IMG/VR virus record: IMGVR_UViG_3300034684_000110
Location: 1 to 29,584 of that record
Reading direction: 5' to 3' (one strand)
Length of the DNA stretch: 29,584 nucleotides
Source: a virus
The notes below the pieces were generated by a model, which searched no databases, had not been told where the DNA came from, and saw only the letters and a list, made by a program, of their open reading frames with translations. Both the position numbers and the translations under genes were made by a program. This document shows, piece after piece, positions 1 through 29,584 of the stretch; the first letter of the stretch is position 1; every line of letters begins with the position of its first letter.

Positions 1-1413
1 CGCCGCACGCTGACCGTAGAGACGTATCCAGAAGCGATCTTTCCACTCTTCGTTAGCCGAACCTGTAGTAACTGATGCCGGCAATGCTAAATCAACCAAT
101 TCCGGTTCTGTGCGCATAGACACCCAGTTTCCTTCTTGCCATGCACCATAATCTCCGGTAGCCGCAGGAGTGCTATTGCCCATTTGCGGAGATAACTTTG
201 CTATGCCCGTACTTTGCGCATGTGCCGCAATAGTAGAACCATTTGCGCCGCGGCTTACAGTTATGCTACTGCCACTTACTGCCGTTACAGTTAACTGCTC
301 ATTTTGGCACTGTAACACATCTCCGACAGTCGGATTAGTCCCACCAGGGCCCAAAAGCAAATTAGATATAGTAAATGTAGCCGGGTTTGTGGTGTTATTT
401 AAGCCGGAATCCGCTATCTTAGCCGTCCACCCACCTGGGATGACGCAGTAATCTGTAATTTGCTGAACTACTGCATCGTTGGCATGAGCGCTGGCTACTG
501 TGCCGTTCTGACCGCGCACGCAACCGCTCAGAGTATAGGTGCCGTTGCCATTATCCACGAGGGAACCATAGATTACGTATTCGTCGTTATTAGCGCCCTC
601 GGCCTTAATAAGAATCAGTCCGTTACTGGTCGGCCAGAGTTCAGGGTTTTGCACTCCATCGATTACGATAGCGGTATCGGTAGTTGTTATACCGTCGGTA
701 TCATTTATAGCGGCTGCCTTGATGGCTTGGTAGCGCCCACAATCGATTAAAAAGTCTACCCATTCCCATACATTGCCTACAATATCGAAGATACCATTTG
801 CCATACCGTTGTGACTCCACGATATAGGTCCGCTGCCGGTCAGTACACGCGATATTCCATGCCCATCGTAACCGGGCTGGACAGAATCCATTATGCCGTA
901 ATTCTCCCAGGCGTCAGTATCTCTGATATCGCGCCCCCAGTAGTTGTTGCCGCGTACATCATGCCCGATGAGCTTAATCAAAAAGCATACCGTAGCCCAT
1001 TCCTTCATGGTGACCATATGGCACGCGCGGCCGTTGATTTTACGATTTGAACACGCTGTTTGAGCATTATTCCAGTTTATATCAGTCCATGGAACCACAC
1101 CCTGTTGGGATACGGCAGCTATCTGGCCAGGTGTATTGGGCGTAGTGCTGCCTCTGCTGATATTTGTCGCATCCGGCTGACTGCATTGGTATTTATCGAT
1201 CAGGAATCCTCCTAACTTTAAATCCACTGGCGGAAACGCGCCGCCAGCCCAAATCCCGGCCGGTATGCGGAACTTCGGTATATATACCATTTTCGACACT
1301 ACTGTCGTACCGCTCCCATCGGCTTTGGAGTTGTGAACCATATCTACTTCGCGGGTGCCGGCTGCTATCCGATCTCGCAGGGCCGCTAATGATAATTTAC
1401 TTACATTTGCCAT
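1..1413 (-). CDS. FGE/C-type-lectin-fold tail fibre protein (partial, runs off left edge)
   Basis: The frame is open for 471 codons from the ATG at 1413 to the window edge; the C-terminus is missing. The start follows GGAGG with 8 nt spacing and abuts the upstream stop (TAAATG). The N-terminal ~60 residues look like a particle-attachment part. Residues ~52-225 resemble the FGE-sulfatase/SUMF1 branch of the C-type lectin fold: WAGGAF (55-60), FLIDKYQCS (70-78), VPWTDINWNNA (107-117), TMKEWATVCF (135-144) at the position of the family's LPTEAEWEYA, YWGRD (158-162) and the hallmark GNVWEW (213-218). Residues ~252-405 are an inserted beta-rich stretch with two related repeats. The visible end, FWIRLYGQR (461-469), is where this fold normally enters its final GG.W...GFR segment. 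The role is inferred to be receptor binding at the fibre tip. Such phage proteins are often targets of diversity-generating retroelements; the segment that would show this is outside the window. Confidence 0.85.
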   Translation of the reverse strand, partial: MANVSKLSLAALRDRIAAGTREVDMVHNSKADGSGTTVVSKMVYIPKFRIPAGIWAGGAFPPVDLKLGGFLIDKYQCSQPDATNISRGSTTPNTPGQIAAVSQQGVVPWTDINWNNAQTACSNRKINGRACHMVTMKEWATVCFLIKLIGHDVRGNNYWGRDIRDTDAWENYGIMDSVQPGYDGHGISRVLTGSGPISWSHNGMANGIFDIVGNVWEWVDFLIDCGRYQAIKAAAINDTDGITTTDTAIVIDGVQNPELWPTSNGLILIKAEGANNDEYVIYGSLVDNGNGTYTLSGCVRGQNGTVASAHANDAVVQQITDYCVIPGGWTAKIADSGLNNTTNPATFTISNLLLGPGGTNPTVGDVLQCQNEQLTVTAVSGSSITVSRGANGSTIAAHAQSTGIAKLSPQMGNSTPAATGDYGAWQEGNWVSMRTEPELVDLALPASVTTGSANEEWKDRFWIRLYGQRAA

Positions 1414-1788
1414 TTATATCGCCTCCTCTTCTGGCAAGGGAAATACCGTAATATCTGTTCCATTAAGATCTAAAAGCCTTTCCACTATTTCCGTCTTAGG
1501 CTGGCCATTCTCATCCGTCTGACCTGTAGGTACGCTCTCATATTGCTTATCCGGTATTATGGCCTCCGCTATAAGCCAGTAGTGATCCCTATAGATGTCC
1601 GTCGATAGCATGCCGTCTTCATCGACATATAACCGGAAAGGCCCTCCTTGAAAAGGTGTTAGATCATATATTTTGCCGCTCACATGTAGCCCATCGCAGT
1701 CGAAGTCAGCTACTATAAGCTCATTCGGTGCCAAATCATTTATAGACAATATATTGTTTGGCCTGCTCGGGTCTTTTTGAATAATCAT
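1414..1788 (-). CDS. hypothetical tail-fibre-region protein
   Basis: A 124-residue acidic protein with no family I recognise. The start has a strong ribosome site (AAGGAGATGGAGAA before ATG). Its stop is immediately followed by the ATG of the FGE-fold fibre, so the two are translationally coupled. It has no signal peptide, membrane segment or coiled coil. Short beta-like segments alternate with turns, including DFDCDGLHVSGKIYDL and GGPFRLYVDEDG, which would fit a small fibre-associated or chaperone-like protein. The tail-fibre role is inferred from position between two fibre genes; a fibre assembly chaperone is the main alternative. Confidence 0.7.
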   Translation of the reverse strand: MIIQKDPSRPNNILSINDLAPNELIVADFDCDGLHVSGKIYDLTPFQGGPFRLYVDEDGMLSTDIYRDHYWLIAEAIIPDKQYESVPTGQTDENGQPKTEIVERLLDLNGTDITVFPLPEEEAI

Positions 1789-1803: not shown

Positions 1804-2241
1804 TTATGTTATAATCTGATATCTGAATGCGCCCATAAAACCACCGGTGTTGTACACTGTAAAGGCGTTAGCAGCTTTGTTGATGAACACATCGCCCAAG
1901 TCCCCACCCGTGTCTGCTATCGGTATGATATTTACCATATAGTTGACATGACCGAGAGAATGGCTGACAGTTTTGCCTGAGGTGCTGTTGAATGTGCTTT
2001 CGCCTTGCAGCGTTTGCGTTTCCAGCGCGTCCAGCCTAGCATCTAAATTAGCCTTTCCGCCTCTGGCTGTCACGATTTCGCTATTTAAAGCATCATACTG
2101 TTGTTTTAGCCACAAACTGCGGTTTGCCAGGTTCTTATGTGGCTTGTTGTCGATACCGTCCGGGCCGCCTTGGACCGGATCAACCTCTTCAATTTGATAT
2201 ACGCCGGAATCCCATTGCGCTACCTCTGATATATTTGCCAT
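1804..2241 (-). CDS. tail fibre protein
   Basis: A 145-residue protein. The N-terminal ~50 residues carry a pattern common in Firmicutes phage fibres: QWDSGVYQIEEVDPVQGG, then G.DN.....LANRSLWLK. This segment is usually the particle-proximal attachment part. A short helical region (AQWD... to LDALETQ, ~50-75) with heptad-like spacing suggests trimerisation. The C-terminal half is Gly/Ser/Thr/Asn-rich and beta-like, ending in FMGAFRYQI. Start supported by an AGGAGAAG ribosome site. It sits between a collar-like fibre protein and the distal fibre genes. Fibre assignment is by similarity of the N-terminal pattern and by position. Confidence 0.75.
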   Translation of the reverse strand: MANISEVAQWDSGVYQIEEVDPVQGGPDGIDNKPHKNLANRSLWLKQQYDALNSEIVTARGGKANLDARLDALETQTLQGESTFNSTSGKTVSHSLGHVNYMVNIIPIADTGGDLGDVFINKAANAFTVYNTGGFMGAFRYQIIT

Positions 2242-2256
2242 CGTTTCTTCTCCTTT

Positions 2257-2697
2257 CTACAGTACTATGGTCCATTGACCATCTATTTCAAGGTCATCAG
2301 CCTTCTCGATAGCGCCTCTGGTGCGCCGCGCGAATAATGTATTATCGCTTCTTAGAAGGCCGAATTCCCTGATAATCATGCCGTTGCCATCGCTTTCCAA
2401 TATGACAAAATCGCATTGTACAGAAGTAGGCGTAGGCCTTATAACCCTTAATAAAGGCTTTATAAAGGCGTTTGTTATGGTCGTATCGCCTGCCGCTGGC
2501 GGTGTCCCATTTGTGCCGATCGCTATCTTAGTCACCGGAAGTATGGAGCCGCCTTGCGCAATGGCCTGAGCAATCTCTTGCCTTGGCACGTTCACCACGA
2601 GATTATTGTCTTCCCATTCCTCTATGGTTCTCCCGCAGCGTCTTATTGTCAGCTTCAATCTACCTTTTATGCCTACATAATCGCTTAATTCAACCAT
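2257..2697 (-). CDS. tail fibre / tail-collar-like protein
   Basis: A 146-residue protein starting MVELSDYVGIKG. An upstream in-frame start at 2721 is open, but AAGGAGG lies 8 nt before the ATG at 2697, so the shorter form is preferred. The segment GTNGTPP.AGDTTIT, the VILESDGNGMIIREFGLLRSD stretch and the terminal DLEIDGQWTIVL are typical of small fibre or tail proteins following the baseplate wedge genes in Clostridia phages. It begins 14 nt after the gp48-like gene. It probably links the baseplate to the more distal fibre proteins; this role is inferred. Confidence 0.75.
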   Translation of the reverse strand: MVELSDYVGIKGRLKLTIRRCGRTIEEWEDNNLVVNVPRQEIAQAIAQGGSILPVTKIAIGTNGTPPAAGDTTITNAFIKPLLRVIRPTPTSVQCDFVILESDGNGMIIREFGLLRSDNTLFARRTRGAIEKADDLEIDGQWTIVL

Positions 2698-2710
2698 GCT
2701 CTCGTCCTCC

Positions 2711-3763
2711 TTACGCAGCATCTTCTATGACTTGGCCATTTCTTTTAACTGTAACACTCATGCTATCAGCTGTACCACCGCCTCTCATTATGTTACCATC
2801 ATGCTTTTTGCCCCAATTATAGAGCCTTATGCCGTTATGCGTGGCCCTCATGTCGCCGTACCTGCTTCTCGTTATCCACCTGTCCCAGCCATCATGCGCC
2901 GAGCCTTCGTTATAGTGGTACCATGGCCGTCGTATCATGCTCCCGGCATGTATCCAGCGTCTGCCTCCCCCATCGTGTTCGAAATCAGCGGCATATATGA
3001 TTTCACCAGGTAAGGTATCGCCATTTTCGTAGCTGGTGCTTACTCTTAGCTCGTCGCGCATCTCTCCGGCTATATGTCTGTACGTGCCGTTATACCTTAT
3101 TGCGGCTGAATGATAAAATATCTCAGCTACCGTGTCGCTGCCGTCTAAAGCTAATGCTATGTCCGGTGCGCGATCCGAAACGCTTATGACATCGCTCATT
3201 GCAGGCGTAAACGCAAAGGAAGCCATGCGCGTATGAGCAGATTTTGTACGATTAACCGTATCCTTTATAATAGCCAGGTCTGCGACCGTAAACCCTTTAT
3301 CTTCGGCTATATCGCTCATGATTTTAAATTCGCTCCAGCGGTTACCTCCCGCATGTTTGGTCCCGCCGTTATAAAAATATTGGCCATTAAACAACGGCAT
3401 AACGATACCGTCCTTGTATAGTTCGTGAATATACGCGTCTGGATAGCCCATGATTTTCAATGCTTCTTCAATGCCCATATTGGTGCCGCCCAACGCATAT
3501 ATAAAGTATGCCGCCTGTAGTCTCTTTCTGTATGCTTCGTCGCTCTCGCCTTTATAGCGTGGCAATCTACGATCCAGACCATGTATGTCCAATCCAAGCC
3601 CCGGTGACGTGCCTATGAACCATGCACGGCGTACCTGGAATGCCGCCTTTTTGAGCCCGTCCAGTTCGTCCCCGACGGTTGCCGTCCATTTTTGGCCTTC
3701 CGAACCATCTTTGAAATGCAGCACGGCCTTTGCAAGCTGCCACAGATAATCGCCAAATTTCAT
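2711..3763 (-). CDS. baseplate wedge / tail protein, Mu gp48- and P2 gpI-like, with repetitive C-terminus
   Basis: A 350-residue protein overlapping the end of the baseplate J gene by ATGA. The N-terminal ~120 residues fit the gp48/gpI class: RRAWFIGTSPGLGLDIHGLDR, then RY.GESDEAYRKRLQAAYFIYALGGTNMGIEEALKIMGY, the part that docks on the J-type wedge. The C-terminal half is longer than in Mu gp48 (about 200 residues) and carries degenerate aromatic/Gly/His units at ~124-140, 222-234, 283-293 and 312-323, of the form YN.G...HDG. These resemble fibre-like repeats fused to gpI proteins in Clostridia phages. The wedge role is well supported; the function of the repeats is unknown. Confidence 0.85.
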   Translation of the reverse strand: MKFGDYLWQLAKAVLHFKDGSEGQKWTATVGDELDGLKKAAFQVRRAWFIGTSPGLGLDIHGLDRRLPRYKGESDEAYRKRLQAAYFIYALGGTNMGIEEALKIMGYPDAYIHELYKDGIVMPLFNGQYFYNGGTKHAGGNRWSEFKIMSDIAEDKGFTVADLAIIKDTVNRTKSAHTRMASFAFTPAMSDVISVSDRAPDIALALDGSDTVAEIFYHSAAIRYNGTYRHIAGEMRDELRVSTSYENGDTLPGEIIYAADFEHDGGGRRWIHAGSMIRRPWYHYNEGSAHDGWDRWITRSRYGDMRATHNGIRLYNWGKKHDGNIMRGGGTADSMSVTVKRNGQVIEDAA

Positions 3764-4869: not shown

Positions 4870-5272
4870 TCTCTATCACCGCCTCATCCGGTCCGTAGCC
4901 CAGCACCATATTTATCGGTGAATGCTCATTTACCGCCTGAAAGGATATTTTAATCCTTATTGTTTCCCTGTCGACACTTATAACCTTGGCTTCGGTCGTG
5001 CCAGCCACGACGCGCGGGTCGCTTTCAACTGCACGCACTGTTTCTTGCTCTATGGCCATTATATCGGTGTCTTCCGTCACGCTTTGCACGTATTGATACA
5101 ATATAGACCCATACTCCGGATGCGCCCAGTGACCGCCTACAGGCGTAATAAGCCTATTGGCTATATCCTGTATAAGGCAGCTTGTACCGCTTACAACCGA
5201 CGCGTCACCCGTCGGTAACACCACTATATCGCCATCTTTAAGCCATATATCAGTGCCTAAATGCTCGTTCAT
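4859..5272 (-). CDS. baseplate GpW/gp25-like protein (Mu gp46 class)
   Basis: A 137-residue protein of the gpW/gp25 (T4 gp25, lysozyme-like) family, a sheath-initiating baseplate component. The segment SCLIQDIANRLITPVGGHWAHPEYGSILYQYV (~33-64) is the family core, with the conserved EYGS-type motif. The frame is open further upstream, but GGGGTG precedes the ATG at 5272, which also forms an ATGA overlap with the preceding stop; that start is chosen. The product is expected to sit at the wedge next to the J protein. Confidence 0.9.
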   Translation of the reverse strand: MNEHLGTDIWLKDGDIVVLPTGDASVVSGTSCLIQDIANRLITPVGGHWAHPEYGSILYQYVQSVTEDTDIMAIEQETVRAVESDPRVVAGTTEAKVISVDRETIRIKISFQAVNEHSPINMVLGYGPDEAVIESGL

Positions 5273-15818: not shown

Positions 15819-16226
15819 TTATACCACCTCGACCCACACGCCGTCGCTGTCCACGGCTATGACCCTGCCAGCCTTGGACCTGGTGTTGGTACCATTAGTT
15901 TTTGCTACCGTCTCATCATCGACTATATAGCAGTCGGTCAGCACTTCAGCCTGGGTTACGGCATCGTCGGACTTATTCTTGTACTTGAATACGCCGCGCC
16001 TTACGCGCACGCTTACCGCTCCTGCTGCGCCGTTCGTATTGTCAACGCTTTCCTCGGCGCGTCCCGCCGCTATCAAACCGGTGGCTGTGGACGCCGGCTC
16101 GGCATATCCGGCGTTTACAGCCACCAACGCGCCGGCATATATCTTTTTGCCGGCTCCGGCCGGCAATACCAAAACTTTAGCGCCTTCCGCCATCATGGGA
16201 GTGTTTCTGTCCTTCGTAAGTGCCAT
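15819..16226 (-). CDS. capsid decoration / structural cement-like protein
   Basis: A 135-residue Gly/Ala/Val-rich protein between the protease-scaffold and the capsid genes. The start MALTKDRNTPM and segments LVLPAGAGKKIYAGALVAVN.GYAEPAS (~18-45), VSVRVRRGVFKYKNK (~70-85), and RVIAVDSDGVWVEV at the end are a beta-sandwich pattern like DUF2190/gp24-type cement proteins in Mu-like and other phages. Such proteins bind the outside of the mature shell. It overlaps the protease stop by one base (TAATG). Assignment by position and pattern. Confidence 0.82.
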   Translation of the reverse strand: MALTKDRNTPMMAEGAKVLVLPAGAGKKIYAGALVAVNAGYAEPASTATGLIAAGRAEESVDNTNGAAGAVSVRVRRGVFKYKNKSDDAVTQAEVLTDCYIVDDETVAKTNGTNTRSKAGRVIAVDSDGVWVEVV

Positions 16227-16735
16227 TATTTATCGCCTCCGTATATCTTTTTGAACTCAGCATCGCTTATGCCCAGCATCTTGTTTATGGATACCTGCAC
16301 ATCGTCCAGGTCAACATACTCCTTTTCGACCTCTTTCCTGCCGGCTATCTGGTCCAGAGGGACCACCACCGGCGCCTTCTCGATAAACAGCTTAAACCCC
16401 TCAGGGTCTTTTGCCGCATAGCCCTCCGCCCATTCTTTCTGAGCCGGCGCAACCTTGCCGGTTTTAAGCGCCATATCCACCAACTCCGCGGTTTCCTTCT
16501 CTTTGAGCTTTTTCTTCAGTTCGTTGAAATCCTGTATCGATACGTAACCCGACGGATTCTTAAGCGATATGACCTTGGCCTTGATCTCGTCGGCCTTTGC
16601 ATCATCTTTCAGATCCAGCGACATCAGAAGGTCCTTGCGTTCTTTGACCATCCTCTCTATGGCTCCCACGATATCATCGTCCTTGGCCTCGTCGGCCAGC
16701 CCCAGCTTGTTTTTGATTTCCTTCACTATCTCCAT
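16226..16735 (-). CDS. Z: nested in-frame scaffold protein (Mu Z-like)
   Basis: An internal ATG in the protease gene (codon 253) is preceded by AGGAGG with 8 nt spacing, a stronger site than most genes here. It would give a 169-residue protein, MEIVKEIKNKLGLADEAKDDD..., identical to the C-terminus of the protease protein. It is helical, rich in Lys/Glu/Asp, with coiled-coil potential around residues 265-345 of the full product, as expected for a scaffold that templates the procapsid and is later degraded. Mu makes its scaffold Z from an internal start in gene I in the same way. Expression is inferred from the ribosome site and the family precedent. Confidence 0.75.
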   Translation of the reverse strand: MEIVKEIKNKLGLADEAKDDDIVGAIERMVKERKDLLMSLDLKDDAKADEIKAKVISLKNPSGYVSIQDFNELKKKLKEKETAELVDMALKTGKVAPAQKEWAEGYAAKDPEGFKLFIEKAPVVVPLDQIAGRKEVEKEYVDLDDVQVSINKMLGISDAEFKKIYGGDK

Positions 16736-17491
16736 GGCTTTATCCTCCTCAAAAGATTGTTTGGCTGCTATAGGTATCATGCCGTCTATGGCCGGCGTGT
16801 TTGTCAGTGCCGCCGAATGTATGGCCACCGCTCTTTTATCGCTGTTGCGCACCATTATCACGGGCGACAGATACCTGTATTCCCTGTTTTTGATGTACTC
16901 CGACGCCTTAGGCGTCCATTCGACCCTTGCCCATAACCCGTCCTCGCCTTTGTTTATCAGCTCCTTTATCCAGCCCGATGCCGGAGCCTCCACATCTTTG
17001 AGCGTCTGGTGCTCATAATCGATCACCGCGTCGTTTTTCTTGTTGCCGAAATATGCCATTATCTCCTGTATCGCCTGCTGATCCACCAAAAAATTGCCTT
17101 TGGCCGAATTGACCCAGCCGTAAGGGAGAATCTGTATCTCAGACGGTGCACCGTCTGATTCAAGTGCTATCACATATGCCTTGTTTGCCTCTGTTCTGTA
17201 TTCGCCTACCTTGTATTTCTTTTTAAAATTCTCCAGCCGCTGCTCTATAATCCTCCTTTCCTCATCAGTATATTGCCGCTGATTCTCAGCCTGCGCCCAG
17301 TACCGGGCGGCCACAGCGGTTTGTTCTGCGTTCGGGCACGGGTACCTGTAGTTGACTGGATCTAAAAAGTCGTCATCGGTTATATCGGGCCACCGGCGTT
17401 TGAATTCGCTCGGCATGGTAACGTTGCCCCCTTCCTTTATGCCGATTCCGTACTTTTTGCTCCTTTCCATCTGCATCTCTTTATCCGTCAT
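16226..17491 (-). CDS. I: Mu I-like prohead protease with scaffold C-terminus and N-terminal DUF6582-like segment
   Basis: A 421-residue protein. Residues ~105-240 match Mu I-type maturation proteases: ILPYGWVNSAKGNFLVD (121-137), DYEHQTL (158-164), APASGWIKEL (169-178), EYRYLSPVI (204-212) and HSAALTNTPAIDGM (225-238), the region expected to carry the active site. Residues ~245-421 are helical scaffold. Residues ~25-95 carry DFLDPVNYRYPCPN and a following helix, resembling the DUF6582-type segment found in other phage head proteins; Mu I lacks this at its N-terminus. Start supported by AAGGAGTGATTAT before ATG. The protease would process scaffold and capsid during prohead maturation. Confidence 0.9.
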   Translation of the reverse strand: MTDKEMQMERSKKYGIGIKEGGNVTMPSEFKRRWPDITDDDFLDPVNYRYPCPNAEQTAVAARYWAQAENQRQYTDEERRIIEQRLENFKKKYKVGEYRTEANKAYVIALESDGAPSEIQILPYGWVNSAKGNFLVDQQAIQEIMAYFGNKKNDAVIDYEHQTLKDVEAPASGWIKELINKGEDGLWARVEWTPKASEYIKNREYRYLSPVIMVRNSDKRAVAIHSAALTNTPAIDGMIPIAAKQSFEEDKAMEIVKEIKNKLGLADEAKDDDIVGAIERMVKERKDLLMSLDLKDDAKADEIKAKVISLKNPSGYVSIQDFNELKKKLKEKETAELVDMALKTGKVAPAQKEWAEGYAAKDPEGFKLFIEKAPVVVPLDQIAGRKEVEKEYVDLDDVQVSINKMLGISDAEFKKIYGGDK

Positions 17492-17606: not shown

Positions 17607-18320
17607 TTAAGCGCGTCCGGAAATTCTCTGGTAAGCCTCTATCAAATCCGGCGGGTATTTGGACAGATCCGGTTGATAGGTTGCCTTACCCGGATTGGCT
17701 TCGAACCCCTTGTCGGGCAACAGCGGCCGCTCTTTGAACTTCGGCATATCCGTTTCCACTTCCAGCCCCATCCGCCGCACCTCTTCTTGTGTCAATGCTA
17801 TTACGCTGCACCGGCAGCGGTACCCGTTGGGCGGATACCACTCGTCCCATACAGGGTGGTTCATCGGGTATACCTTGCCATCCATCGCCAGATGTGTCGG
17901 CCTTACCCTCGAATCGTTTATGGCATCATACATCCAGTACCGCCTCACCGAGGCCACATCCGGATCGGTCATCTGTTTATACCTGCCCACCATATACGCC
18001 GTCTGTATATTGGTCCTGAACACGTTATCGGCTCTGTATGGTACCGGTCCTATCCAGCCGTGCTTTGCCAGAACATCTTTTGCGTTTTTTTCAAATTCGG
18101 CCAGCGTGGACCCTTCCTCAATAGCTTTTACGATCTCTTTTTTAATGCCATCGAGCATATCCAGCGAAGCTATGTGCGATACGGTGAAGGCAAGCGCTTT
18201 TGCATCGTCTTCCAGCTTATAGTATTCGTCCGCCCTCATGGGCACCTTTTCTTTGAAATACTCCATAGCCTCTTCGAATGTCATGGGCTCCAGCTTTATG
18301 TCCGCTCTGTAATCAGCCAA
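17607..18320 (-). CDS. MuF/SPP1 gp7-like head morphogenesis protein (Mu gp30)
   Basis: A 237-residue minor head protein. The C-terminal MuF domain (~127-185) shows RRYWMYDAINDSRVRPTHLAMDGKVYP and the conserved PPNGYRCRCSVIALTQEE. The N-terminal part is helical and probably contacts the portal. It starts with TTG, supported by GGGAGGT about 9 nt upstream; no better ATG fits. It overlaps the portal stop by 8 nt. Mu gp30 is about 425 residues, so this is a compact version with nothing fused behind the MuF domain. A copy or two are usually packaged with the portal. Confidence 0.92.
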   Translation of the reverse strand: MADYRADIKLEPMTFEEAMEYFKEKVPMRADEYYKLEDDAKALAFTVSHIASLDMLDGIKKEIVKAIEEGSTLAEFEKNAKDVLAKHGWIGPVPYRADNVFRTNIQTAYMVGRYKQMTDPDVASVRRYWMYDAINDSRVRPTHLAMDGKVYPMNHPVWDEWYPPNGYRCRCSVIALTQEEVRRMGLEVETDMPKFKERPLLPDKGFEANPGKATYQPDLSKYPPDLIEAYQRISGRA

Positions 18321-19806
18321 TTATCGTCAACCTCCCGTACAGATCCGCCACATACAGCGCCCGCGCTATCAAATCCTCCAGCTCAGACGTGTCCATATCG
18401 GCGTATACGCTCGCCAGCTTGTCGCGTACCTCTTCCAGCGACGACGATTCGCGTATCAACCGCATTATTGGCTCGGCCAACCGCTCGAACAGCTCCTGCG
18501 AATTTGCGACAACCGCGCTTGCCAAATTATCTATATTGTTCTGATTGCTGATACCGGCCGTTTCAGTATTCTTATTGGCTATTTGCATCATTCCGGGCGG
18601 CGTTACCACAGCTTCGCTGCCTTCGGGTTTCGGTATGCCGAACTTCTCGTATATATGCTCGGCAGGTATTTTAAGCCCCACGTCTTTGACCAACACGGCG
18701 TAGGTGTCGGCCTCAGCCTTTAAATCCTCCGGCGGCTCATAGTGGAACTTTATCCACGGCAGCCTGCTCGTATCGCCGAAGTTATACTGTATTAAAGGTT
18801 TTATAATATATCGCCTAAGCGTCTCCGATAAAGCCTTGCAGTCGGCTTCCAGAAGATCCTGGCGCACCTGCTGATGAGTGTTCGATGCCGCATAACTCCC
18901 GCTGGTTCCGATCTCGGTTGTAAGGGTTTGCCCAAGTATGGCTTTGCTCATCTCGGCGTTGCAGAAATTAACCAGCGTTTCGTACACATTGGCGCTGCCT
19001 TTGATTGCCTCCACAAATTCTATCTCGGTCGACTTAGATATGATGCCCGCGGCGTCCGAGCCGAGCTGCGCCACAGCCTGTAAAAGCGCATTTTTGTCTT
19101 CCTCGGTCGAAGACGTATCGTATTTGCCCAGCCTCAGAGGCATGCCATATACCTCCGCAAAGGTGACCCAGTCCTTAATCGTGTAATTCTTGAACAGATA
19201 CATCCAGGCTGCCACGCGCAATACGCCGGCTCTGGACGGATAACCCGACCGCGCTTTATACTTGTGCACCGTGAACTTGCCCGGCGGCAATTCTATACCG
19301 TATATTGGCTCCGAATCGGTTATGAGACGCAAATTGTCGTTCTCATCAAATATGAAACGTTTCTGATGCACCCATTCCAGGCTGTCTATATACACGTGCC
19401 CGTCTTTTATGCGGTACATATTCTCGCACACGGCAAAGCCTTTGCCGATTGCGTCCAGGAGGTCAAGCATAGCGTCTTCCAGCCCTTCAAACTCAAAGCA
19501 CTGGCGTATAAAATCAGCCATCTGCACATCGGTCGCACTATCAGAATAGGGCATAACATCCCAGTCCACGCCCAGCACACCGTTCTTGCGTGTCTGCAAC
19601 GTTGAAAACAGATGCGGGTCCTTTTCCTCCATCTCTTCGAACAGTTCCATCTGCCTATATATATCGCCGGCATCGGCTTCTTTGAATATTCTCGCAAGCT
19701 TATCCGGTGTCAGGCCGCTTGACGGATATGACGAATATTTATCTTTTATGCTCGCAACGGCTACTCTGTCGGTAACCGGCCTTTTAACCAGATCATCAGC
19801 CATCAA
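18313..19806 (-). CDS. portal protein (Mu gp29, DUF935)
   Basis: A 497-residue portal of the DUF935 family, near Mu gp29 (512). Signature segments are GLTPDKLARIFKEADAGDIYRQMELFEEMEEKDPHL (in pieces, ~32-68), TRKNGVLGVDWDV (~72-84), the DAIGKGFAVCENMY block (~118-131), WVHQKRFIFDE, the FVE.IKGSANVYETLVNFCNAEMSKAILGQTLTTE region and the C-terminal helices. It forms the ring through which DNA is packaged. It overlaps the terminase gene by ATGA and the MuF gene by 8 nt. Two consecutive ATG codons could serve as start. Confidence 0.95.
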   Translation of the reverse strand: MMADDLVKRPVTDRVAVASIKDKYSSYPSSGLTPDKLARIFKEADAGDIYRQMELFEEMEEKDPHLFSTLQTRKNGVLGVDWDVMPYSDSATDVQMADFIRQCFEFEGLEDAMLDLLDAIGKGFAVCENMYRIKDGHVYIDSLEWVHQKRFIFDENDNLRLITDSEPIYGIELPPGKFTVHKYKARSGYPSRAGVLRVAAWMYLFKNYTIKDWVTFAEVYGMPLRLGKYDTSSTEEDKNALLQAVAQLGSDAAGIISKSTEIEFVEAIKGSANVYETLVNFCNAEMSKAILGQTLTTEIGTSGSYAASNTHQQVRQDLLEADCKALSETLRRYIIKPLIQYNFGDTSRLPWIKFHYEPPEDLKAEADTYAVLVKDVGLKIPAEHIYEKFGIPKPEGSEAVVTPPGMMQIANKNTETAGISNQNNIDNLASAVVANSQELFERLAEPIMRLIRESSSLEEVRDKLASVYADMDTSELEDLIARALYVADLYGRLTIIG

Positions 19807-26110: not shown

Positions 26111-27067
26111 TCACGCATCGCCCATAAGCGTCTTTTTGGCTTCCGCTATATAGTCCATGTCCAGCGGCTTGTTCTGCGCCCGTGCCAGCGTCATGGCCAG
26201 CATGTAAAGCTTAATCATGTAGCGTATGCCGCCTTTCATGTTAGCCACCTTGAGCAGGTATTCTCTTACTTCGCGGCTTATATGCCGGCCGTCGAATATC
26301 ATGTCCATGTCCTCTTCGGTTACGACCGGTTGAAGACACCTCCTGATGCCGATCCTTGAGAAGAACTGTGCGAACGCCGCTTCGCCGCGCCCGTACATCC
26401 TGTCATGAATAGCTTGGTTGCCGCAGAACACCATGCCGATACCTTCTGCTTTGTCGTATATCGCGCGCATGACCTCCAATGCCCTCAGCGTCAGGTGCTG
26501 CGCCTCGTCTATTATGAGCAGCCGGCCGGTGCCTTTCAGAGCGCTTATGATCAGATTCTTTTCCTGCCTCAGCGTGCCGTACTGGTGCTTGCCTATGGCG
26601 TCCAGTATCTCTTCCACAATGGCTTTCGGCGTGGCTACCGTCGGATCAGCGGATATGTATATCGCATCTGTATGCGTCCGCATGTAGTATTGTATGGCCA
26701 TTGTCTTGCCCAGCCCGGCATCGCCGTATATCAGCGCTATGTCTTTGTTTATGTGCGCGTATGATATGGCCGATATAACCGACTTGGCTATCGACGTCAT
26801 CGCAAATTCCGGTTTTTCGACCGCATCCGCGCGTTGGTACTCCACGGCCAAAAAGCTCGCTATCTTTTGCGTTATACCAGTCACGTTGCCTGGATATGTG
26901 CCTTTGAGAAACTGTGTCAGAGCCGCCGGCGACATGCCGATCGCTTTTGCTATGTCGTTCTGGCTCTTGCCTGTGGAATTGATGTACTGCTTTAAAAGCT
27001 CCGCAGTCCGTGCCGCCGCCACCTCTTCATCCGTGAACTGCCTTTCTTCGGATAATGCCTCTCCCAT
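26111..27067 (-). CDS. B: MuB-like transposition target-selection ATPase
   Basis: A 318-residue AAA+ protein that binds DNA and directs the transposase to targets, also giving target immunity in Mu. Residues ~19-75 form an N-terminal HTH (LLKQYINSTGKSQNDIAKAIGMSPAALTQFLKG), as in Mu B. The ATPase domain has Walker A GDAGLGKT (115-122), Walker B LLIIDEA (183-189) and a C-terminal helical part with RYMIKLYMLAM. Length matches Mu B (312). GGGAGG precedes the ATG at 27067. It follows the transposase gene after one small gene. Confidence 0.95.
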   Translation of the reverse strand: MGEALSEERQFTDEEVAAARTAELLKQYINSTGKSQNDIAKAIGMSPAALTQFLKGTYPGNVTGITQKIASFLAVEYQRADAVEKPEFAMTSIAKSVISAISYAHINKDIALIYGDAGLGKTMAIQYYMRTHTDAIYISADPTVATPKAIVEEILDAIGKHQYGTLRQEKNLIISALKGTGRLLIIDEAQHLTLRALEVMRAIYDKAEGIGMVFCGNQAIHDRMYGRGEAAFAQFFSRIGIRRCLQPVVTEEDMDMIFDGRHISREVREYLLKVANMKGGIRYMIKLYMLAMTLARAQNKPLDMDYIAEAKKTLMGDA

Positions 27068-27315: not shown

Positions 27316-29313
27316 TCACTTGTTCTGCATGGCTCTGCGCTGGTATTCGATAGCTATCTCCAGCGTGTCGTTTATATCCTGCATCGTGGTCTTTTTAGTC
27401 TTGGCCTGCTGCATCTCTGCGTACTCGATCAGCCAGTCGTCCGTTGTCTTCTGTCTGGTCTGTCCGCTCTCGGCAGCCTCCGGCACGCGTTTCATGTCGC
27501 CGGCGGCTTTTTCCATCTCAGGGTTGCGTACCAGCTCGACCACGTTGGTCGCCGGTGCGGATTCTTCTTTCGCCTCCTGCCGTGCTTCTATGACGCGCCG
27601 CAGGGGATCGGGCTGCATGACCTCTTTTGCCACGGCATCTTTGTATGCTTTGGCGCGCTGCCGCGTCTGCTTTTTTTCTTTCATGGCCTGGCGTATGTCG
27701 TCGGCCGTGGCGCCCCACGCCAGCGCTTCGCGGTTGGCCGCCGTGCACAGGAACCTGTCTTCTGTGTCGAACACGTACACCGTGCCGACCTGCTGCAATT
27801 CGTATCTGACGTATACCATGTGTTCCTGATGCGGCGCCAGCTCAGGCGAATAGTACCAGCGCCCGAACAGCCATATGCCGTTGCGCTGCACCTTGAGCGG
27901 CTTTGATGTGCGCATCATGAACAGCCTTAGCACGTCATCGGGCGCCGTGCGCTTGACCGGCAGCAGCTTGTCGAATACCTCGCGCGGGCTTTTGCCGTCC
28001 ATGCCGTCGCCGGTATGAGGGTTTTCGTTGTATACGCTGTCAACCCATCCGCCGAATAGCTTGTCCACTTCGGCTATCACAGGTATGTTGTCGGGGTTCT
28101 TCATGACGTCGTTTAGTCTCTCGGGCCGTTCCTGAACATTGCCGCCGCGGTAGGTTATAAACCACTTGGAGAACTGTTCCTTGACCGTTTCAAAGAAACG
28201 CTCGATCGGCTTGGCTTTGGCGTTCTCGGGCAACGCGAAATGAGGCACTATGCCGAGATGCCGGACCAGCGGTTCAATGCGCTCCTGGTCGATTTCGGCT
28301 GTTACGCGGTGGCCGCGGCCCGCAAAGTCATAGGCGGTGTAGTCGCGCCCGTTGTCCATGTATACCTCGAGCGGAAGCCCGTACCTTCGTATGGCGCGTC
28401 CGAATGAATCGAGTATAGTGTCTGTGTTCGGTCCTTCCGATATGCGGTATCCGACTATACGGCGGGACCGCATGTCCATCCATACGGTGATCCATGGGAA
28501 TATGGCGCGTTTGCGGCTGCCCATGCACGCCACGTCAAGCTGGTGATGGTCGGATACCCAGCACTGGTTGGGAACCATGGCTGTGTAGTCGCGCTTGATA
28601 TACGGCACGCATTTGTCGTCGAACGCCTTGGGCCCCTCGCGGTAGTACGTGATTATCTGATAGTCCATCTCTTTTCTTATACGCCGCTTAAAGGCTGATA
28701 TCGATGGAATAGGCTCGCCGCGTTTTGAGGCTTCCAGCTCGACCACGGCGTAACAGGCCGATATGGTGCGCTTGTTCTGATCCAAATACAAATTCTTAAA
28801 CATGTCCCATTGCCAATCGGGTATGGTGCTCTGCCACTCGCGGCTCATGTATCCGGGTACCAGGCCGGCTATGCCGGCTTGCCGGTAATCGTTCTGCCAG
28901 CGGTACAGGGTTGCGATGGATACGTGCTCGTCGGGATATGCTATGTTGTATTTGGCCGCAAACTCACACATGGCGGCCTTCTTGTTTCCGCCGGCCTTCT
29001 CGGCTGCCCATACATATTTTGTCATGCTCTCCAGGACTTTAAGCTTCTTTAATGCTGCGCCGCGGTATTTCTCCGGCACGTCGTCGAGCGTCGTAACGTG
29101 AAGCGGCGCGTCCATCTGCTGCATCACGTATTTTATCTGCGCCTCTATGGGCAGGTTCCATACCGATATCTGGATCACCTTGCCGGCGTCGCCGCCTCGG
29201 CCGTCTATGTACTTTACTTCACCATATTTCCCTGCCGCGGCATTTATCCGCACCATGCGTTCACTTATTTCCAGTAACTTTGCGGCGGTTGATGTATCAA
29301 TGTAATCCTGCAC
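27316..29313 (-). CDS. A: MuA-like DDE transposase
   Basis: A 665-residue DDE transposase that would cut and join the phage ends during integration and replicative transposition. The N-terminal HTH (TSTAAKLLEISERMVRINAAAGKY, 7-30) and a second DNA-binding region (~100-215, ATLYRWQNDYRQ) precede the catalytic core. Likely catalytic residues are D255 (WVSDHHQLDV), D320 (VYMDNGRDYT) and E371 (AKPIERFFETVKEQFSKWF), matching the Mu D269/D336/E392 order. A beta-barrel-like region and a Lys/Arg-rich tail follow; the C-terminus interacts with B in Mu. The start is a GTG at 29313 with a weak AGGCG-type site; length equals Mu A (663). Confidence 0.95.
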   Translation of the reverse strand: MQDYIDTSTAAKLLEISERMVRINAAAGKYGEVKYIDGRGGDAGKVIQISVWNLPIEAQIKYVMQQMDAPLHVTTLDDVPEKYRGAALKKLKVLESMTKYVWAAEKAGGNKKAAMCEFAAKYNIAYPDEHVSIATLYRWQNDYRQAGIAGLVPGYMSREWQSTIPDWQWDMFKNLYLDQNKRTISACYAVVELEASKRGEPIPSISAFKRRIRKEMDYQIITYYREGPKAFDDKCVPYIKRDYTAMVPNQCWVSDHHQLDVACMGSRKRAIFPWITVWMDMRSRRIVGYRISEGPNTDTILDSFGRAIRRYGLPLEVYMDNGRDYTAYDFAGRGHRVTAEIDQERIEPLVRHLGIVPHFALPENAKAKPIERFFETVKEQFSKWFITYRGGNVQERPERLNDVMKNPDNIPVIAEVDKLFGGWVDSVYNENPHTGDGMDGKSPREVFDKLLPVKRTAPDDVLRLFMMRTSKPLKVQRNGIWLFGRWYYSPELAPHQEHMVYVRYELQQVGTVYVFDTEDRFLCTAANREALAWGATADDIRQAMKEKKQTRQRAKAYKDAVAKEVMQPDPLRRVIEARQEAKEESAPATNVVELVRNPEMEKAAGDMKRVPEAAESGQTRQKTTDDWLIEYAEMQQAKTKKTTMQDINDTLEIAIEYQRRAMQNK

Positions 29314-29315
29314 GG

Positions 29316-29423
29316 CTATCGCCTGCCTTGTCTATCTGCATTGTCATCGGCCCTGCCGGCCGCCGCGCAGCATGCCCAGTCCAAAAACCCTATTGCTAAA
29401 AACCCGATCAGTACGTATATCAT
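29316..29423 (-). CDS. 35-residue membrane peptide
   Basis: MIYVLIGFLAIGFLDWACCAAA, then a charged GRADDNADRQGRR tail. Residues 2-22 are a membrane helix with a CC pair; short peptides of this kind (hydrophobic helix, CC..A.RADD close) occur in many Firmicutes prophages. GGGGGT lies 7 nt before the ATG at 29423 and the stop is 2 nt before the transposase start. An upstream in-frame ATG (29456) has no ribosome site. Function unknown. Confidence 0.65.
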   Translation of the reverse strand: MIYVLIGFLAIGFLDWACCAAAGRADDNADRQGRR

Positions 29424-29448
29424 GTTAAGACCCCCGTTTAGGTTCGTA

Positions 29449-29584
29449 TTATCCATGTAACGCGGTATGCCGGAGTTGAACCGGATTATGTTTATTGCAC
29501 GTCCGCGTGCCGTTACCGCATGTTAACTGTTTTAATGGGATACCGGCCGCCGTTATACCGTATCCCGGCAGCCGGCCTGTTCTA
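29449..29584 (-). CDS. possible C-terminal end of an upstream gene (partial)
   Basis: One minus-strand frame is open from the window edge to a stop at 29449 (44 codons), ending in NPVQLRHTALHG, 26 nt before the next start. It would fit a tightly packed gene end, but the stretch is repeat-rich and overlaps a tRNA-like fold, and there is no start in view. No family recognised. It may equally be non-coding. Confidence 0.3.
   Translation of the reverse strand, partial: RTGRLPGYGITAAGIPLKQLTCGNGTRTCNKHNPVQLRHTALHG
29461..29520 (-). other. tRNA-like fold with T-arm match
   Basis: On the minus strand TGCGGTA and TACCGCG can pair (seven pairs, one G-T) as an acceptor-like stem. Inside lie a 5-bp hairpin (GCACG/CGTGC) and an arm CCGG-TTCAACT-CCGG containing GGTTCAACTCC, an exact T-arm box. 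At 60 nt it is too short for a complete tRNA and has only two inner arms. It could be a tRNA remnant, a regulatory structure, or chance. Confidence 0.35.
29537..29566. repeat. inverted repeat at the right edge
   Basis: GGGATACCGG and CCGTATCCC pair over 9-10 bp with one bulge around an 11-nt loop. No T tract follows in either direction, so a terminator is unlikely. The unit GCCGTTA[TA]CCGYAT occurs twice (29510-29522 and 29549-29563). Upstream of a Mu-like transposase such repeats could be repressor or transposase sites; this is inference. Confidence 0.45.

Follow-up and report, generated by a model that had tools for sequence, protein, structure and literature searches.

A complete BPP-1-type diversity-generating retroelement beside a lectin-fold tail fibre gene at the right end of a Mu-like phage, and a CTG array downstream of its variable repeat

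The tail fibre gene that runs off the left edge of the DNA analysed here, an entire IMG/VR record, 29,584 bases long, that covers part of a phage (the window), is, with a probability of about 96%, the target of a complete diversity-generating retroelement (DGR) of the BPP-1 type, ordered as target gene with variable repeat (VR), Avd, template repeat (TR) and reverse transcriptase (RT) and lying outermost on the right in a transposable, Mu-like phage whose host probably belongs to the Bacillota. That this fibre would be a DGR target, with VR, TR, Avd and RT immediately left of base 1, had been predicted from the window alone; in an overlapping contig the VR forms the 3' end of the fibre gene and the complete Avd/TR/RT cassette adjoins it, all within 2 kb. 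Mu-like phages with a standard DGR of the BPP-1 type are already known, as described for Hankyphage (PMC6199706) and Mushu (PMC5883640). The system is thus a new instance of a DGR in a transposable phage, which goes further in an enlarged insert of the fibre, in its position as the last module and, above all, in an array of CTG units restricted to the VR side.

Membership of the phage among the Mu-like phages is evident from the joint presence of MuA, MuB and the Mu portal in the window. On the minus strand, the genes lead from a MuA-type transposase (27316..29313; Mu-transpos_C, HTH_Tnp_Mu_2 and DDE_2) and a MuB-type ATPase (26111..27067; AAA_22 and Phage-MuB_C) through terminase, Mu portal protein (18313..19806; PF06074, E=2.7e-117) and the Mu-like prophage I protein, a protease/scaffold protein (16226..17491; PF10123, E=1.4e-83), to the baseplate and fibre genes. 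The latter comprise, equally on the minus strand, tail protein I (2711..3763; match to the domain Tail_P2_I), a protein similar to the N-terminus of tail-collar fibres (2257..2721; domain and PHROG matches), a tail-fibre-like protein of an N-terminal fibre family (1804..2241; PHROG tail fibre matches), a small fibre-module protein (1414..1788), an open reading frame conserved beside the fibre in relatives, and finally the fibre gene itself (1..1413, open at base 1), of which 471 of 510 codons are present. The left end of the phage is probably missing from the window because right-end-type transposase sites were not found within it; in the 271 bases left of MuA (29314-29584) neither a repressor gene nor transposase sites were recognised. 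The sequence beyond base 1 is provided by contig L002 (IMGVR_UViG_3300034520_000111; 7,117 bases), which is identical to the window at 4,890 of 4,890 overlapping bases, with 0 mismatches, and extends 2,227 bases further. Window coordinates are obtained as 4891 minus the L002 position, such that window base 1 equals L002 4890 and positions beyond the edge are negative; the VR beyond its first 7 bases is consequently read from a separate contig of the same phage population.

The fibre is a C-type-lectin (FGE-type) protein with a variable C-terminal end. In the window, its translation stops after FWIRLYGQRAA, with FWIRLYGQR (7..33, minus strand) as the last constant residues before the VR, and the 39 further codons in L002 read IRGGSWPYGSNARAGFALTLSNLPSYTSYIVGFRAALTL up to the stop. 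The full-length gene (L002 3478-5010) encodes 510 residues and ends in IRGGSW...GFRAALTL, so that the assumption of a gene cut at the entry to its GG.W...GFR end proved correct, and the lectin core is combined with the C-terminal GGxW...GFR end characteristic of this type of DGR variable protein. The motifs TMKEW (residues 135-139; 997-1011) and GNVWEW (residues 213-218; 760-777) lie where they had been placed. Pfam FGE-sulfatase matches residues 98-220 of the window part at E=0.0015, slightly under the cut-off, and the full-length fibre at E=0.00019, also under the cut-off. A phmmer search of solved structures returned a single match (2e-19), to TaqVP (5vf4), the variable protein of a DGR in a Thermus aquaticus prophage; the lectin core at residues 100-231 (721..1116, minus strand) corresponds to TaqVP 85-219 and a second stretch covers the variable end of TaqVP. 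An AlphaFold2 model from a 54-sequence alignment (pLDDT 86.8; a poor 18-sequence model with pLDDT 59 was set aside) finds TaqVP chains as its best PDB matches (6e-16), followed among DGR proteins by Mtd variants, which bears out the predicted fold. Judged from sequence and model together, the likeness to TaqVP and the lectin fold is not one of chance.

The fibre and TaqVP (PMC6328139) have the lectin core and the C-terminal variable segment in common in sequence and structure, but differ in the distance from GNVWEW to the C-terminus, which amounts to about 180 residues in TaqVP and to 298 in this fibre family, versus 82-185 in the other DGR targets compared. Much of this surplus comes from a long, beta-rich stretch inserted after the GNVWEW strand and ahead of the variable end (residues ~219-435; 109..759, minus strand; delineated by Pfam and the model), inside which PF23666 (Rcc01698_C) matches residues 266-314. 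By its position the insert would correspond to 'insert 2' of TaqVP, for which counterparts are reported in all solved DGR proteins (PMC6328139), and would thus represent an enlargement of this known insertion place. The two halves of the insert have an RGxNGx...AHA motif in common; a clean tandem duplication was rejected as its origin, since the alignment score of the halves, 45, lies within the range reached by shuffles (up to 60).

Only the first 7 bases of the VR (TGCGGCG, 1..7), as aligned with L002, precede the contig break in the window. The entire VR extends from window 7 to -110 (L002 4884-5001, minus strand) and is a near-repeat of the TR at -551 to -668 (L002 5442-5559). Contigs L009, L010 and L011 likewise end within or shortly past the VR, and we infer that assemblies break here because the VR varies and resembles the TR. 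Between the two repeats lies Avd (-187 to -522; L002 5078-5413), recognised by NF033474 (4e-35, over the NCBI equivalog cut-off) and bAvd (8e-33), and the RT follows at -838 to -1911 (L002 5729-6802). The RT carries DGR-type motifs, with the DGR form of motif 4 (IGNLTSQ at 194) and YMDD at 226; QGxxxSP is absent from the L002 RT, where the [ILV]GxxxSQ form is found instead. Its best solved relative is chain 8ub7_A (2.8e-78), which we take to be the structure of the BPP-1 reverse transcriptase. VR and TR of L002 differ at 12 of 118 positions, 11 of them TR adenines (Fisher p=5e-8) and the twelfth at the extreme 3' end, in agreement with the expected near-repeat that differs mainly at A positions. 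The TR translates into AAIRGGNWNNGSNARAGFALNLNNLPSNTNNNIGFRAAL, which contains 11 AAY codons, and 10 of 39 VR residues deviate from this translation. The IMH/IMH* difference is equally present, with VR and TR diverging past their common block and one C>T at the 3' end. Neither outcome that had been named as contrary to the original prediction, the absence of an RT and an A-biased repeat or a C-terminus without the GG.W/GFR segment, was encountered.

The target site downstream of the VR has two components, a hairpin and the CTG array. The hairpin, of the form GC-GATA-GC with a GATA loop, has two mismatched stem positions in L002; among nine relatives, five of eight stem pairs are compensated, and none of 500 shuffles is as good. 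It fits the GRNA-loop hairpin described after the VR by Guo et al. 2011 (PMC3240598). Between VR and hairpin (-111 to -167; L002 5002-5058) the array consists of about 2-5 units of (A)ATCTG(A) with start-to-start distances of 7 or 8 nt, and most relatives carry it at the corresponding place. In 97 distinct VR-downstream regions adjacent CTGs lie 7 nt apart 122 times and 8 nt apart 82 times, which corresponds to 2.10 such pairs per region versus 0.025 in shuffles. Two or more pairs occur within 60 nt after the VR at 58 of 100 loci, while in the 60 nt after the TR none of 100 loci has even one. When the RTs are clustered at 60% identity, 25 of 40 clusters show the array, in no case on the TR side, and at the looser threshold of 50% only 6 of 14 clusters do; it is missing at 15 of 100 loci and therefore not universal.

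A scan of IMG/VR by the array pattern alone recovered at least 79 further stretches; among the matches listed (at least 79), 47 are situated directly after an adenine-biased VR and 48 have a same-strand RT within 3 kb. This is strong support for the array as a mark of DGR targets, but not fully independent, because the contigs of L006, L014 and L030 are among those already known. L202, L211, L224, L259 and L262 combine the array with a downstream GRNA-loop hairpin and lack an RT within the stretch available; these loci may represent remote or orphan DGR targets. In L196 and L234 the array pattern recurs several times in tandem, at distances of 45-75 nt, without DGR parts nearby.

In BPP-1, the 3' ends of the repeats are CTGTGACCACCTGATTCTTG (VR) and CTGTGCCCATCACCTTCTTG (TR), and their differences abolish a CTG...TTG pair spaced by 7; the direction of transfer is determined by a 21-bp element with five mismatches (Guo et al., PMC3240598). 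Against this background the heptad array might, at slightly less than even odds, constitute a general recipient-site code of DGRs, of which the 21-bp IMH of BPP-1 would be one version, serving as the mark that distinguishes donor from recipient, possibly read by the RT-Avd complex, and as a stand-alone finder of targets including remote ones. A published description of such an array was not found in the openly accessible literature searched. An unlikely but conceivable alternative is that the array arises as a by-product of stop codons in all frames or of C-terminal codon bias, as each 7-nt step shifts the frame and all-frame stops within 45 nt occur in 41 of 100 VR regions versus about 12 in shuffles. 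However, the invariant part is CTG and not TGA, the A following in 52% only, an array is lacking on the TR side, and where the VR is internal to a gene (L055, L060, L062 and Mushu) the array is kept within the open reading frame, such that the stop-codon explanation was disfavoured after testing.

Signs of DGR action come from the variation among relatives. Pooled over L002 and seven relatives, 97 of 194 TR adenines (50%) are changed versus 17 of 791 other bases (2%). Between the siblings L003 and L004, identity is 99.6% in the fibre body and 82.5% in the VR, with 20 of 21 VR differences at TR adenines; equally, L014 and L009 are 99.9% identical in the fibre body and 82.5% in the VR, 18 of 20 VR differences falling on TR adenines. 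Such divergence of VRs in near-identical fibre genes points to recent action of the DGR in nature and reads as the trace expected from ongoing mutagenic homing. That the DGR has decayed, leaving a VR fixed since earlier retrohoming, is very improbable; in favour of this explanation are the L005 fibre copy (1918-3414), which stops early inside the VR at 498 residues, possibly through an error of homing or of assembly, and demonstrates that not every copy is intact, and the L004 contig, in which no A-biased repeat was found, but the phage of the window has RT, Avd, TR and hairpin all intact and the sibling VRs have changed while the fibre genes otherwise remained almost the same. An ordinary FGE-fold enzyme or fixed fibre beside an unrelated defence RT or group II maturase, suggested by weak matches of the RT to NCBIfam group II RT/maturase and Drt models, is practically refuted by the A-biased TR/VR pair that ties the fibre gene to the RT, as well as by the Avd equivalog and the position of all those matches far under curated cut-offs.

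By analogy to BPP-1, RNA that covers the TR would be reverse transcribed by the RT-Avd complex with misreading of template adenines, and the mutated cDNA would take the place of the VR, with the 3' constant block, the CTG-heptad array and the GRNA-loop DNA hairpin downstream of the VR as guides. The outcome would be a lectin-fold fibre tip with an altered C-terminal binding face, presumably in contact with a receptor, through which the host range might be changed, as originally proposed. The Bordetella phage BPP-1 (mtd/avd/TR/brt) is alike in gene order, in TR/VR lengths of about 120-134 bp, in adenine-directed changes, in Avd, in the RT family (44.6% identity) and in the GRNA-loop hairpin after the VR. 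It has features of its own in an attachment site in a tRNA gene, the lack of a Mu-type end and Mtd as the target, and its IMH is far less regular than the CTG array of the present phage.

We regard the DGR as the final module ahead of the right phage end, since right-end sites lie beyond the RT in L002 and contig L012 starts on the RT side. Downstream of the RT stop in L002, two copies of the 15-nt site TCATTTTAAGCGACC are found 22 nt apart (L002 6794-6840), and around L002 6837 there is TG(TAGCT), read inward, with a host-like FN3 gene, seemingly interrupted by the prophage, in the outward direction. L012, a contig of 36,445 bases with MuA and Mu portal, begins with TGTAGCGCGACAT beside the RT; its opposite end carries TG. 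Mu-type transposition genes together with a DGR are a feature also of Hankyphage, Mushu, BalMu-1 and YPCBV-1, the latter two of which are known in this respect from their sequence records; the DGR is near the right end of the record in Mushu, BalMu-1 and YPCBV-1, as in the present phage. The target in Hankyphage is a large open reading frame with the VR at residues 2188-2225 and in Mushu a Hoc-like protein, and in BalMu-1 lysis genes follow the RT, whereas no further gene separates the RT from the phage end here. In phage Mu, fibre switching relies on the inversion of DNA close to the right end. With a retroelement at the place that matches this inversion device, one genome position seems to be home to different devices of fibre variation.

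The fibre is shared by the Mu-like contigs L007, L011 and L012, and L007 and L012 carry the same DGR cassette. In L006 and L014, with fibres 77-79% identical and complete DGRs, Mu genes were not detected. Closely related modules thus occur both alongside Mu genes and in contigs where none were detected, which suggests that phages exchange the fibre-plus-DGR module. The wider relevance lies in the CTG array, which marks DGR targets in many other genomes and is absent on the TR side; while the work on BPP-1 has localised the site of writing but left it unexplained, the array offers a testable approach to how DGRs recognise this site. A possible test system is the cultured isolate Desulfotruncus alcoholivorax DSM 16058, a host of the same kind of prophage, which harbours MuA, MuB, Mu portal, fibre, Avd and RT in this order on one contig. 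As a separate observation, L014 has, further right, a large open reading frame identified by eye as serine-recombinase-like.
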